Below, piece after piece: positions 48,086 through 57,317 of a stretch of 64,000 nt of DNA; position 1 is the stretch's first letter, and every line of letters starts with the position of its first letter. The DNA comes from Alphaproteobacteria bacterium (GTDB taxonomy: Bacteria; Pseudomonadota; Alphaproteobacteria; Rhizobiales; Xanthobacteraceae), in contig JBBCGH010000001.1 in assembly GCA_037200445.1 (NCBI GenBank), positions 5,406,001 through 5,470,000 of the forward strand, in the 5' to 3' direction. Below the pieces are notes generated by a model. It saw only the letters and a program-made list of their open reading frames with translations. It had not been told where the DNA came from and made no database searches. The translations under genes and the position numbers were made by a program.

Positions 48086-49828
48086 ATGGCGGAAGCCGCA
48101 CTGAAGGAAAGCCCTGCGAGCGCTGCGGAAGACGAGCGCGAGCTGACCGACGGCTTTCATCTCATCATCGATGCGCTGAAGCTCAATGGCCTCACCACCA
48201 TCTACGGCGTGCCGGGCATTCCGATCACGGATTTCGGCCGCATGGCGCAGGCCTCAGGGCTGCGCGTGCTCTCGTTCCGCCACGAGCAGAACGCCGGCTA
48301 TGCGGCCTCGATCGCGGGCTTCCTGACCAAGAAACCGGGCGTCTGCCTCACCGTCTCGGCACCGGGCTTCCTCAACGGCCTGACCGCGCTCGCCCACGCC
48401 ACCACCAACTGCTTCCCGATGATCCTGATCTCCGGCTCTTCCGAGCGCGAGATCGTCGATCTGCAGCAGGGCGACTACGAGGAGATGGACCAGCTCGCGA
48501 TCGCCAAGCCGCTCTGCAAGGCCGCCTATCGCGTGCTGCACGCGGCCGATATCGGGATCGGCATCGCACGCGCGATCCGAGCCGCGGTGTCGGGCCGTCC
48601 GGGCGGCGTCTATCTCGACCTGCCGGCCAAGCTGTTCGGCCAGGTGATGGACGCCGAAGCCGGCAAGAAGTCGCTGGTGAAGGTGATCGACGCCGCGCCG
48701 GCGCAGATCCCTGCGCCCGACGCGGTGAAGCGCGCGCTCGATCTCCTCAAGAGCGCCAAGCGCCCGCTGATCATCCTCGGCAAGGGCGCAGCCTACGCGC
48801 AGGCCGACGACGCGATCCGGGCGTTCGTCGAAAAGAGCGGCGCGCCGTTCCTGCCGATGAGCATGGGCAAGGGCCTCCTGCCCGACACGCATCCGCAATG
48901 CGCGGGCGCGGCGCGCTCGACCGTGCTGGCGCAGTCCGACGTTGTGATGCTGATCGGCGCGCGGCTCAACTGGCTCCTGTCGCACGGCAAGGGCAAGGCC
49001 TGGGGCACCGAGCCCAAGAAGTTTATCCAGATCGACATCGAGCCGAAGGAAATGGACTCCAACATCGAGATCGTGGCGCCGGTGGTCGGCGATATCGGCT
49101 CGTGCGTCGCCGCACTCAATGAGGCGATGGGCGCCAGCTTCCCGAAGGCGCCGGCGGACTGGGCGAAAACAGTGACCTCCAAGCGCGACGAGAACGTCGC
49201 CAAGATGGCGCCACGCCTGATGAACAACAACGTGCCGATGGACTATCACGGCGCGCTCGGCGTGCTGAAGAACGTCGTCAAGGAGCGCCCCGACGCGATT
49301 CTCGTCAATGAGGGCGCCAACACGCTCGACCTCGCGCGCGGGATCATCGACGTCTACCAGCCGCGCAAGCGCATCGATGTCGGCACCTGGGGCATCATGG
49401 GCATCGGCATGGGCTATGCGATCGCCGCAGCGGTCGAAACGGGCAAGCCGGTGCTTTGCGTCGAGGGCGATTCGGCGTTCGGCTTCTCCGGCATGGAGGT
49501 CGAGACGATCTGCCGCTACCAGCTGCCGATCTGCGTGGTGATCTTCAACAACGACGGCATCTATCGGGGCACCGACGTCAACAATGCGAGCGCCGATCCG
49601 GCGACCACCGTGTTCGTGAAAGGCTCGCGCTACGACAAGATGATGGAAGCGTTTGGTGGCGTGGGCGTCAACGCGACGAGCCCCGACGAGCTTCGCCGTG
49701 CCGTCAACGCCGCCATGGATTCCGGCAAGCCGACGCTGATCAACGCGGTGATCGATCCCGCGGCGGGCAGCGAGTCCGGCCGCATCGGAAATCTCAACCC
49801 GCAGAGCAAGCTGAAGAAGAAAGCGTAG
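48086..49828 (+). CDS. oxc: oxalyl-CoA decarboxylase
   Basis: Encodes 580 residues of a ThDP enzyme that decarboxylates oxalyl-CoA to formyl-CoA. [12 protein letters not shown] at about 64-75 has the ThDP-activating Glu, and [20 protein letters not shown] at about 461-480 leads to FNNDGIYRG, the Mg-ThDP motif of GDx25-30NN type. [18 protein letters not shown] and the C-terminal basic SKLKKKA tail match known oxalyl-CoA decarboxylases. The start follows GAGGGAGAG. It is central to oxalate breakdown; frc follows after a 145-base palindromic spacer. Confidence 0.97.
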
Positions 49829-49950: not shown

Positions 49951-49973
49951 GAGACTGAGACAAGGAGACACAT

Positions 49974-51563
49974 ATGGCCAAGAAGGCAAACCGCGCCGCA
50001 GCGCGCGTGACCAGGAAGGCGGCAGCCGCGCGGCGCGCTGCCGCACACGCCAAGGCGCGCGGTGGCGCCGGCGCCGCGAAGCCCTCCGCCAAGCGCGCTC
50101 GCGCGCCGAAGAAGGCGCTTGCCACCAAGCAGAGCATGCTGGCCGCCGACGCGCGTGCGGCGCGCTCCGCCAAGCAGGCCGCCCGCAAGGCCGAGAAGCG
50201 CAGCGCCAAGGCCACCAAGGGGACTGCGGCGAACAGCAACGGTCTCCCGAAGCCGTCGACCAAGCCGTTCGGCCAGGCCGGCAAGGCGCTCGAAGGCGTG
50301 CGCATCCTCGACTTCACGCACGTGCAGTCGGGGCCGACCTGCACGCAGCTGCTCGGTTACATGGGCGCGGATGTCATCAAGGTAGAGCGCCCGGGCGTCG
50401 GCGACATCACGCGCGGCCAGTTGCGCGACGTGCCGAACGCAGACTCGCTCTACTTTACGATGCTCAACGGCAACAAGCGCTCGATCACGATCGACTCGAA
50501 GCACCCTAAGGGCCGCGACATTCTCGATCGCCTGATCATGCAGTGCGACGTGCTGGTCGAAAATTTCGCGCCCGGCGCGCTCGACCGCATGGGGTTGACC
50601 TGGGAGCACATCCACAAGCTCAACCCGCGCATGATCGTCGCGTCGGTTAAGGGCTTCGGCCCCGGCCCGTACGAGGACTGCAAGGTCTATGAGAACGTCG
50701 CGCAGTGCGCGGGCGGCTCGGCCTCCACCACCGGCTTCCGCGAGGGCCCGCCGCTGGTCACCGGCGCGCAGATCGGCGACTCAGGCACCGGCCTGCATCT
50801 CGCGCTCGGCATCGTGTCGGCGCTCTACCAGCGTATCCGCACCGGCCGCGGGCAGAAGGTGCTCTGCGCCATGCAGGACGGGGTTCTCAACCTTGCGCGC
50901 GTGAAGCTGCGCGATCAGCAGCGCCTGACGCACGGCCCGCTGAAGGAATACAGCCAGTTCGGCGAGAACGTGGCGTTCGGCAAGGCGGTGCCGCGCGCCG
51001 GTAACGACTCCGGCGGCGGACAGCCCGGCTGGATCCTCAAGTGCAAGGGCTGGGAGGAAGACCCCGACGCCTACATCTATTTCATCACGCAGGCACCCGT
51101 GTGGGGCGAGATCTGCGACCTGATCGGCAAGCCGGAGTGGAAGACCGATCCGGACTACGCGACGCCGAACGCGCGGCTGCCGCGGCTGAAATCGATCTTC
51201 GGCACCATCGAGGAGTGGACCAAGACCATGACCAAGTTCGAGGTCATGGATAAGTGCAATGCGCTCGACATTCCGGTCGGTCCGATCCTGTCGATGAAAG
51301 AGATCGCCGAGGAGAAGTCGCTGCGCGACACCGGCACGGTGGTCGAGGTCGATCACCCGACGCGCGGCAAGTACCTGACCGTCGGCAATCCGATCAAGCT
51401 GTCGGATAGCCCCTGCGAGGTGGCGCGCTCGCCGCTGCTCGGCGAGCACACCGAGGAAATCCTCGGCAAGGTGCTCGGCTATTCGGCTGCCGAGATCACG
51501 GAGATCAAGGGGTCGGGCGCGATCACGCCTGCCGAGAAGGGCGCGCGCGCGGAAGCGGCTTAG
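49974..51563 (+). CDS. frc: formyl-CoA:oxalate CoA-transferase with histone-H1-like N-terminal tail
   Basis: Encodes 529 residues. The catalytic part starts at about residue 104 ([20 protein letters not shown]) and is 426 residues long, like Oxalobacter Frc. The catalytic Asp lies in [10 protein letters not shown] at about 269, and the glycine loop is [10 protein letters not shown]. It transfers CoA from formyl-CoA to oxalate. The first 90 residues are an extra domain rich in alanine (35), lysine and arginine (26) with only two acidic residues, resembling histone H1 or AlgP tails. AAGGAGACACAT precedes the ATG, and no ATG, GTG or TTG lies at the usual Frc start, so the tail is probably translated. 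Confidence 0.95.
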
Positions 51564-51569
51564 CGCAGG

Positions 51570-51652
51570 CTGTCGTCCCCGCGAAAGCGGGGACCCAGTA
51601 ACCACCGAACAAGCGGTGTTTACTGGATGCCCGCCTACGCGGGCACGACGAC
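51570..51652. repeat. palindromic repeat, GTCGTCCCCGCG... family (copy 3)
   Basis: GTCGTCCCCGCGAAAGCGGG then GACCCAGTAA, and TTTACTGGATGCCCGCCTAC then GCGGGCACGACGAC. It lies between frc and the formyltransferase gene, ending 22 bases before its ATG. Confidence 0.75.
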
Positions 51653-51674
51653 GGAGTGTGGGAGGGTTGTTGCA

Positions 51675-52601
51675 ATGCGTATTGTGGTCCACGGCCAGCA
51701 GGCGTTCGGCAAGGCGGTGCTCGAGGCACTGTTGAAGCGCGGCGAGAACGTGGTCGCCGTCTACGTCGCGCCGACCAAGCCGGGCGCGAAGGCCGACCCG
51801 CTGCTCGATGCCGCGATGGCGGCGAATCTGCCGGTCTATCAGCCGGCCTCTTACAAGGACCCGAAGGTGTGGGAGGAGTTTCGTGCGTTGAAGCCCGACC
51901 TGCAGGTGATGGCGTTCGTGACGTTGTTCGTGCCGGAGGACTTCCTCAACATCCCGACGCATGGCTCGATCCAGTATCACCCCTCGCTGCTGCCGGCCTA
52001 TCGCGGCGCAAGCGCGATCAACTGGCCGATCATCAAGGGCGAGACCGAAACCGGGCTTTCGATCTTCTGGCCTGACAACGGGCTCGATACCGGCGATGTT
52101 CTCATCCAGAAGAAGACTCCGATCTCCGGCACCGACACGCTCGGCACGGTCTACTTCGACCGTCTGTTCCCGATGGGCGTCGACGCGATGCTCGAGGGCG
52201 TCGACCTCGTGAAAGCCGGCAAGGCCCCGCGCATCAAGCAGGACGAATCGAAGGCGACCTATGAGGGCCGCTGCGGCGCCGGCAACGCACATATCGACTG
52301 GGGGAAGCCCTGGGAGCAGATCGACCGGCTGATCCGCGGCTGCAACCCGGCGCCTGGCGCCTGGTCGAAATTCGGCGACCAGACGGTGAGGATCTTCGAC
52401 GCGAAGCCTATCCCCGCCACGAGCCCGAAAGGCATCGCCGGCAAGCTCGGCGAGATCGTCGAAGTTGGCGCCGACGGCATCACGGTGGTGTGCGCCGACG
52501 GGCGCTTCAAGGTCACGCGCGTGCAGGCCGACGGCCCGAAGGTCGGCGCCGGCGAGTGGGCCAAGAGCGCCGGCATCGAGAAAGGCGCGATCTTCACATG
52601 A
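51675..52601 (+). CDS. stand-alone 10-formyl-THF hydrolase-type formyltransferase
   Basis: Encodes 308 residues, started at [20 protein letters not shown] because the frame upstream is repeat sequence. [20 protein letters not shown] at about 101-120 and [17 protein letters not shown] match the N-terminal hydrolase domain of 10-formyl-THF dehydrogenase (ALDH1L1). His102 and Asp138 sit 36 residues apart, as in that enzyme. A C-terminal formyl-transferase domain (from about 210) follows. The aldehyde-dehydrogenase part is absent. It could hydrolyse 10-formyl-THF or move a formyl group. Located between frc and fhs, it is likely part of formyl-CoA to THF traffic. Confidence 0.85.
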
Positions 52602-55679: not shown

Positions 55680-57317
55680 TCAGAATATCCTGGCGGCGTT
55701 CTTCAGCGTGATCCAGAATCCCCAGGCGAGCGGGACGCCGACGAACGCCCAGAAGATCGCCGCCTGGACATCGAGCCCACCCTTGCCGATGCCGTACGAG
55801 CCGCCCTGCGAGGCAGCACCCGCATTGGCGGCCTGCAGCTTCGCGACCTCGTCCTGGCTCATGTACCACTTCGGATCGACCGGCTTGACCAGGTAGTTGC
55901 AGATCAGGCCGATGACCAGCATGCCGCACAGCACGTACATGGTGGTGTTGTAGAGTTGGTCGCGCGGCACGCCAGCGGCGAGCTGGAATTCGCGGATATA
56001 GTTCACCACCACCGGGCCGATGATGCCGGCCGTCGACCACGCGGTAAGCAGGCGGCCGTGGATCGCGCCGACGAACTGCGTGCCGAACATGTCGGCGAGA
56101 TAGGCCGGCACCGTCGCGAACCCGCCGCCATACATCGACAGGATGATGCCGAAGGCGAGCACGAACAGAAGCTTCGATCCCATCGCGGCGAATAGCGGCG
56201 CCGACGCATAGAGCGCGATGCCGAGGATGAAGAACGTGTAGTAGGTATTCTTGCGCCCGATGTAGTCCGACAGCGAGGCCCAGCAGAAGCGGCCCGCGAT
56301 GTTGAACAGCGAGAGCAGGCCGGTGAAGCCGGCCGCGATCGCGGCGATCTGCACGCGTTGCTCCGGGGTCAGTGCGTTGAACTTGACTCCCGGCAGGCCG
56401 ATCAGATTACCCGCGAAGATCTCCTGCAGCATCGGCGAAGCCATGCCGATCACGCCGATGCCGGCGGAGACGTTGAGGGTGAGCACCCACCAGATCAGCC
56501 AGAACTGCGTCGTCTTGTGCGCGTCCTTCAGATGCACGTTGTGCTGCGAGATCATCGCATTCGACTTGGCGGGCGGCGTCCAGCCGTCCGGCCGCCAGCC
56601 TGCCGGCGGCAGGCGATAGCGGAAGGCGCCGATCATCATGAAGAAGAAGTAGATCGCCGCCATGGCGACGAAGGTCTGCCACGCGCCGACCGAGGTCGGC
56701 GTTTTGAAATAGTTCATCAGGATGTCGGCGAGCGGAGCGCCGATCATCGCGCCGCCGCCGAAGCCCATGATCGCCATGCCGGTCGCCATGCCCCGCCGGT
56801 CGGGAAACCATTTCACCAGCGTCGACACCGGCGAGATGTAGCCCAAGCCGAGGCCGATGCCGCCGATGACGCCCGCGCCGAGCCACATCAGCCAGAGCTG
56901 ATGCACGTAAACGCCGAGTGCACCGATGATGAGCCCGCCGCACCAGCACAGCGCCGCGACGACGCCCGCCTTGCGCGGGCCCGCGCGCTCGAGCCAGCCG
57001 CCCCACACCGCGGCCGCAATGCCGAGCAGCACGAAGAACAGCGTGTACATCCAGCCGAGGCTGGCGACGCGCCAGTTGCAACTTGTGGCGAACAGTTCCT
57101 GCCAGAGATCGGCGCAAACCGGCGCGCCCTGAACCGTGCGCGAGAGAGGCAGCCAGAACACCGAGAAGCCGTAGGCCATCCCGATGCAAAGGTGGATGCA
57201 GAGTGCCGCGGGCGGCACCAGCCAGCGGTTGAATCCCGCTGTTGCGATGATCCGTTCGCGGTCGAGAATGCTGGAGATGCCGGCGCTGCCGGACAGAGTT
57301 TCGCCAATTGCCGCCAT
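55680..57317 (-). CDS. OFA-family MFS antiporter (second oxalate/formate-type)
   Basis: Encodes 545 residues, about 120 longer than the first OxlT-like protein. Twelve core helices contain IGGIGLGLGYISPVSTLVKWFPDRRGMATGM, a close OFA motif, and GRFCWASLSDYIGRKNTYY. The C-terminus carries an added hydrophilic stretch and another helix (AAIFWAFVGVPLAWGFWITL). A large periplasmic loop between helices 1 and 2 has cysteines (VCADLWQELFATSCNW). Likely exports formate or imports oxalate, or another oxoacid. It ends in a strong UUCG terminator and lies downstream of a LysR gene. Confidence 0.9.
   Translation of the reverse strand: MAAIGETLSGSAGISSILDRERIIATAGFNRWLVPPAALCIHLCIGMAYGFSVFWLPLSRTVQGAPVCADLWQELFATSCNWRVASLGWMYTLFFVLLGIAAAVWGGWLERAGPRKAGVVAALCWCGGLIIGALGVYVHQLWLMWLGAGVIGGIGLGLGYISPVSTLVKWFPDRRGMATGMAIMGFGGGAMIGAPLADILMNYFKTPTSVGAWQTFVAMAAIYFFFMMIGAFRYRLPPAGWRPDGWTPPAKSNAMISQHNVHLKDAHKTTQFWLIWWVLTLNVSAGIGVIGMASPMLQEIFAGNLIGLPGVKFNALTPEQRVQIAAIAAGFTGLLSLFNIAGRFCWASLSDYIGRKNTYYTFFILGIALYASAPLFAAMGSKLLFVLAFGIILSMYGGGFATVPAYLADMFGTQFVGAIHGRLLTAWSTAGIIGPVVVNYIREFQLAAGVPRDQLYNTTMYVLCGMLVIGLICNYLVKPVDPKWYMSQDEVAKLQAANAGAASQGGSYGIGKGGLDVQAAIFWAFVGVPLAWGFWITLKNAARIF

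Follow-up and report, generated by a model that had tools for sequence, protein, structure and literature searches.

The solved relatives of the formyl-CoA transferase (Frc) described here are homodimers. The key residues of the O. formigenes enzyme are Q17, W48, D169, G259, and G260, according to the available part of the source (PMC10192776). Tails rich in lysine and alanine have been described on other bacterial proteins. AlgP and PhaF have histone-H1-like C-terminal domains with KPAA repeats. DNA is bound by peptides and by a fragment from the C-terminus of AlgP, a protein located on polyphosphate (polyP) granules, and PhaF is believed to link PHA granules with the nucleoid (PMC9239181, available part). 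In E. coli, YihI and Rnr bind polyP through lysine-rich stretches, and PASK motifs are polyacidic and serine-rich (PMC12345225, available part). Such tails on Frc or malate synthase were found neither in a literature search with most subscription papers outside its scope, nor in a wider search by title and start of abstract.

The window, i.e., the whole stretch of 64,000 nucleotides analyzed here, encodes a Frc that has a tail of this type at its N-terminus. The features concerned are:

48086..49828, plus strand: oxc, oxalyl-CoA decarboxylase (Oxc), directly upstream of frc (TIGR03254, 1027.5 bits)
49962..49967, plus strand: Shine-Dalgarno sequence AAGGAG, ending 6 nt before the ATG at 49974
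49974-51563, plus strand: frc open reading frame (ORF) including the tail, encoding 529 residues
49974..50240, plus strand: basic K/R/A-rich tail body, residues 1-89 (from composition, absence of a Pfam family, and the tails of relatives)
50241..50282, plus strand: linker, residues 90-103 (14 residues), conserved with the tails
50283..51563, plus strand: formyl-CoA transferase core, residues 104-529 and stop (TIGR03253, PF02515, solved relatives YfdW and O. formigenes Frc)

The whole core is shared with known Frc proteins, to which the window protein adds 103 N-terminal residues. The formyl-CoA transferase model TIGR03253 covers residues 104-517 with 701.8 bits, above its cut-off of 504.2, and so begins where the initial annotation had placed the start of a normal Frc. 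The alignment with YfdW (1pt5) starts at residue 98 and that with O. formigenes Frc (1p5h) at residue 104; among the solved chains in the PDB, no matched stretch starts before residue 91. Residues Q118, D269, and G347-G349 appear to occupy the places of the key residues (YfdW alignment, by eye) and are invariant in the 27 tailed sequences of the similarity set; the counterpart of O. formigenes W48 is Gln149, as it is in YfdW. The protein is probably an ordinary formyl-CoA transferase, judging from TIGR03253 and the adjoining oxc. The gene order is oxc, frc, a formyl-transferase-like gene, and formate-tetrahydrofolate ligase. The third of these (51675-52601, plus strand) matches PF00551 and PF02911, and scores 165 bits against TIGR00460 (fmt), below the cut-off of 201.5.

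The initial annotation counted 35 A, 14 K, 12 R, and 2 acidic residues among the first 90 residues, and the recount is exact (the acids are D59 and E74, and there are 5 S). Its comparison of this basic, acid-poor make-up to histone H1 also holds, with a computed pI of 12.0 for residues 1-104 and 6.1 for the core. With the composition of ten neighboring ORFs as reference, the binomial probability is 2e-20 for at least 61 A, K, or R in 90 residues and 0.005 for at most 2 acids, a crude yardstick that ignores low-complexity sequence growth. Residues 1-104 match no Pfam family, and tail and core have third-position GC fractions of 0.89 and 0.90. The good ribosome-binding site noted at the first ATG is matched by no comparable site further in: in the preceding 20 bases, the in-frame ATG or GTG codons 12, 55, 117, and 130 have nothing AGGAG-like, and GTG 109 has only AAGG. 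An AF2 model of the window protein, poor overall (mean pLDDT 57.9), gives pLDDT below 50 over residues 29-92 and a helix of moderate confidence over the first 28 residues (10-residue block means 61, 75, and 53); the model of a relative (L012), also poor overall (mean 63.0), is below 50 over residues 1-42.

Like the Frc tail, the C-terminal domains of AlgP and PhaF are lysine/alanine-rich, acid-poor, and predicted to be largely disordered. The Frc tail differs in being N-terminal, proline-poor, and attached to a catabolic enzyme; KPAA is absent from the window tail, and only 4 of the 91 distinct tails pooled below have at least two copies. The polyP-binding stretches of Rnr and YihI are similarly disordered and lysine-rich, whereas the Frc tail, with its 2 acids and 5 serines in 90 residues, does not correspond to a PASK motif (PMC12345225, available part).

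The initial annotation treated the tail as a lone oddity and proposed a search of Frc homologs for similar extensions. Among the best 80 of 583 Frc loci fetched by similarity and scored by a fixed K/A-rich rule, 26 have a K/A-rich tail (27 of 81 with the window). On the tree of Frc cores the tail label needs 3 changes, compared to a mean of 23.0 in shuffles, a pattern that fits one gain and two losses, the root not being known; of the apparent losses among these loci, L021 retains a linker-like start only and L023 has no trace. A profile of tail plus linker (model A1) was used to search genomes. In the host genome, a single contig of 5.84 Mb, it finds frc at E 2e-15; its one further match there (E 0.4) has an internal stop. 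In the family it matches 101 of 296 genomes in 24 of 47 genera, once in each genome, with open frames that are Frc-sized or fragments; where a genome has more than one Frc copy (three in G029, for example), a single match is tailed. The tail is thus not a lone oddity, and a sequencing or assembly error, which had been named as a possible refutation, is ruled against by its presence in 24 genera. As the model matches open frames across many family genomes, the 103-residue basic tail and linker ahead of an intact Frc core are real and no artifact.

Frc itself (E 1e-100) is present in 260 of the 296 family genomes. Within the 24 tailed genera 101 of 105 Frc-bearing genomes have the tail (exceptions G114, G131, G181, and G245), and the remaining 155 Frc-bearing genomes of the family give no match to model A1. 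In a sample of the class, the model matches 10 of 385 genomes, from four families, and Frc occurs at E 1e-100 in 43, of which 35 are above the cut-off; in three of the families (f58, f88, and f123) all 9 Frc-bearing genomes are tailed. In the phylum sample the only match in 289 genomes is the window's own. The tail thus belongs to one Frc lineage, and the four exceptions among 105 genomes, together with the two apparent losses, show it to be dispensable.

For comparison of the tails with each other, the window tail, the 26 found by the fixed rule, and 78 from model-matched loci, which are tailed by selection, were pooled to 105 tails, 91 of them distinct. Tail bodies, i.e., tails minus the 14 linker residues, have 25-124 residues (median 43, CV 0.33), while net charge per residue has a median of +0.38 (range 0.245-0.46, CV 0.10); 78 of the 91 bodies lack any acid and only 4 have an aromatic residue. 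Charge per residue is thus kept while sequence and length drift. The linker is Pro-rich, with the consensus P-[KR]-P-S-x-K-P-[FWY]-G-x-[AD]-G, an aromatic residue at a fixed place in 89 of 91 distinct tails, and G at -4 and -1 in all 91. A KVVKL-like motif, [KR][VIL][VLAI][KR]L, is found in 43 of the 91, starting 28-38 residues before the core; in 500 shuffles of the tails it occurs 0.36 times on average and 3 times at most, although relatedness inflates the observed count. Tails of the pooled relatives start with ATG in an open frame, and 84 of the 91 distinct tails open with MAK, MAT, MAV, MAA, or MAI. Across 41 non-overlapping pairs, changes at third codon positions are 2.7-fold as frequent as the average for first and second positions in tails and 4.6-fold in cores, which is expected of translated sequence, with alignment by protein favoring such an excess. 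In the similarity set (L009-L088), the mean net charge of the Frc core is +0.26 in 27 tailed and -5.59 in 54 untailed sequences; this lower acidity of tailed cores may be due to descent alone.

The window tail is a long, R/A-rich outlier and is not to be treated as the type of these tails. Its body has 89 residues, +0.27 charge per residue, 2% proline, and no KVVKL-like motif. The family sample includes two further genomes of the genus, whose Frc tails occupy this position, are 58 and 55 residues long, and contain KKIVRL and KKVVKL.

Tails of this composition are not a general feature of oxalate loci. A K/A filter applied to loci L009-L168 is passed by 98 Frc ORFs (105 of the loci hold a tailed Frc, the filter missing some short tails) and by none of 2546 other gene-like ORFs. 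At the loci of 8 of the 17 CaiB/BaiF matches in the host genome, no other protein of this kind passes it. In 1.6 Mb sampled from the host genome, 12 of 3707 gene-like ORFs pass a loose and 5 a strict form of the filter, presumably including topoisomerase I and a LigD-like ligase, besides the small proteins, GlmU, and malate synthase A described below. A proteome-wide K/A excess was rejected, as comparison with an untailed control showed no difference (G013; strict 0 and loose 4 in 0.4 Mb). Two small K/A-rich proteins (L224:13102-13536, 145 aa, and L242:7752-8060, 103 aa) have MAKK-type N-termini and no Pfam match. A K/A-rich C-terminal tail is found on the product of L180:12601-14010 (minus strand), which we take to be GlmU. 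GlmU was considered as a third partner and rejected: relatives occur in all 13 genomes read, and the tail only in the window's 3 genus genomes, being absent in 5 other Frc-tailed and 5 untailed genomes, so it does not track the Frc tail.

Malate synthase A behaves differently, and its kept tail extends the question from a single odd gene to a lineage. The host enzyme (PF01274; L195:9373-11259, genome 1659373-1661259) has about 100 extra basic, K/A-rich N-terminal residues, and is preceded by what we take to be glycolate-oxidase-like genes. Between these and the tailed enzyme lies an H1-like K/A/P-rich ORF of 117 residues (L195:9036-9389), which has an AGGAGG site and overlaps the malate synthase A start. 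The malate synthase core (E 1e-150) is present in 58 of 296 family genomes, and N-termini were read in 52 (the host and relatives L250-L305; left out were G058, G120, G129, G151, G216, and G224). Malate synthase A is tailed in 39 and plain in 13. Among these it is tailed in all 29 genomes with a tailed Frc and plain in all 10 with an untailed Frc, defined by absence of a tail-model match (in G013 and G073 the N-termini of six Frc copies were read, and each is plain). In genomes counted as having no Frc, including G136, G191, and G200, which give no Frc match, it is tailed in 9 and plain in 3; one tailed case (G020), whose Frc match is a fragment without the N-terminus, was set aside.

The malate synthase tails resemble those of Frc in being N-terminal, K/A-rich, and kept across genera; two of them (G029 and G054) are R-rich with less than 4% lysine. 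They differ in their linker, in lacking the KVVKL-like motif (0 of 52), and in having an H1-like ORF upstream in 16 of 39 cases, compared to 0 of 13 for plain enzymes, within the flanking sequence available. As called, they reach 491 residues. A start codon that lies at most 30 residues from the core and has a stretch resembling a ribosome-binding site is found in 13 of 13 plain and 5 of 39 tailed enzymes. On the malate synthase tree, the Frc-tail and malate-synthase-tail traits each change once and give one independent pair only, which indicates a single event in a shared lineage and no proof of a functional link; co-occurrence as proof of a joint role with Frc was rejected on this ground. 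A glyoxylate-shunt explanation was also rejected, isocitrate lyase matches in the host being partial only (about 90-100 of 526 positions). It is very unlikely, though conceivable, that the two C2-acid enzymes, Frc for oxalate and malate synthase A for glyoxylate, are tagged lineage-wide by H1-like tails and gather with the small H1-like protein on the nucleoid or a polyP scaffold, in a shared oxalate/glyoxylate assembly.

For Frc we infer, with a probability of roughly 0.4, that the tail is a disordered polycation tethering the enzyme to a large polyanion. It would hold the enzyme by many weak contacts, most likely on the nucleoid (DNA and RNA), possibly on polyP or nucleoid-tied granules; as the solved relatives are homodimers, two such arms per enzyme would be expected. 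Its role would be to position Frc in the cell, and it would neither alter the chemistry of the enzyme nor regulate genes. The initial annotation had listed DNA, a granule, a membrane, OxlT, and Oxc as candidate partners. Charge kept more closely than length, with few acids and aromatics, is as expected of sequence-tolerant electrostatics, and multivalent contacts are suggested by the near-constant charge density, the drift in sequence, and the low order predicted for most of the tail. Tethering is judged most likely because bacterial tails of like make-up bind DNA or polyP, as far as the available parts of the sources go (PMC9239181; PMC12345225); retention in 101 of 105 genomes and the H1-like ORF upstream of 16 tailed malate synthases also count in its favor. 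Against it count the modelled N-terminal helix, the lack of KPAA in the window tail, and the dispensability of the tail in some genomes, and the KVVKL-like motif and conserved linker hint at a more specific contact. If tethering is correct, a histone-like arm would determine the cellular location of an ordinary catabolic enzyme, and on a CoA-transferase such an arm was not found in the literature searched.

That more specific contact could be docking, in which the tail binds a particular protein (Oxc, an OFA transporter, or other) through the motif or through charge. The near-fixed distance of the motif from the core, and its frequency far above shuffles even if descent inflates it, speak for docking, but 48 of 91 tails, including the window's, and all malate synthases read lack the motif. 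Docking to Oxc by charge was made less likely by a weak test: Oxc is not more acidic in tailed species, with mean net charges of +1.18 (55 tailed) and -0.16 (43 untailed) for the body and -2.44 and -2.21 for the N-extension, all uncorrected for descent, and the Frc core is itself less acidic where tailed. Docking is unlikely. The polycation could instead serve as an electrostatic antenna that draws in and holds the anionic substrates (oxalate, formyl-CoA, oxalyl-CoA), so that their local concentration is higher or CoA esters stay close to Frc and Oxc; the same would extend to glyoxylate and acetyl-CoA for malate synthase. Frc and malate synthase both use small carboxylates and CoA esters, and they are the sole enzymes found with cross-genus tails. 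Salt screening, however, should weaken electrostatic attraction of substrates; in loci L009-L168 a tail is missing from Oxc, which shares the CoA esters and the operon with Frc, and most Frc proteins, as well as the malate synthases of 13 of 52 genomes, lack one. This role is rather unlikely.

The tail may also have no role: AAG/GCC-rich terminal repeats could expand with little harm and be kept mostly by descent. The wide range of body lengths, a window tail that greatly exceeds the two others from the genus in length, and other K/A-rich stretches in the host genome would agree with tolerated growth of this kind. It is nevertheless unlikely, given the near-constant charge density, exclusion of acids, linker and start conserved over 24 genera, and the third-position excess, even if alignment by protein favors the latter. 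That the tail is missing from the mature enzyme, through translation starting near the core or removal after synthesis, is most improbable: the ribosome site is at the distal ATG with none of like strength nearer the core, and the relatives have open frames and similar starts from their own ATG. Tethering to a polyanion remains the preferred reading of the Frc tail.

Two further observations concern the surroundings of frc. A palindromic, repeat-like stretch (51575-51660) lies between frc and the next gene, and related words are found close to further gene starts in the window, e.g., in the upstream reading of oxc (MPAFAGMT). An MFS transporter at 55680-57317 (minus strand) is related to oxalate/formate antiporters with scores below their cut-offs; the C-terminal 29 residues score above the cut-off of NF047966, 'MFS transporter small subunit', and may represent a separate small subunit fused onto the transporter.
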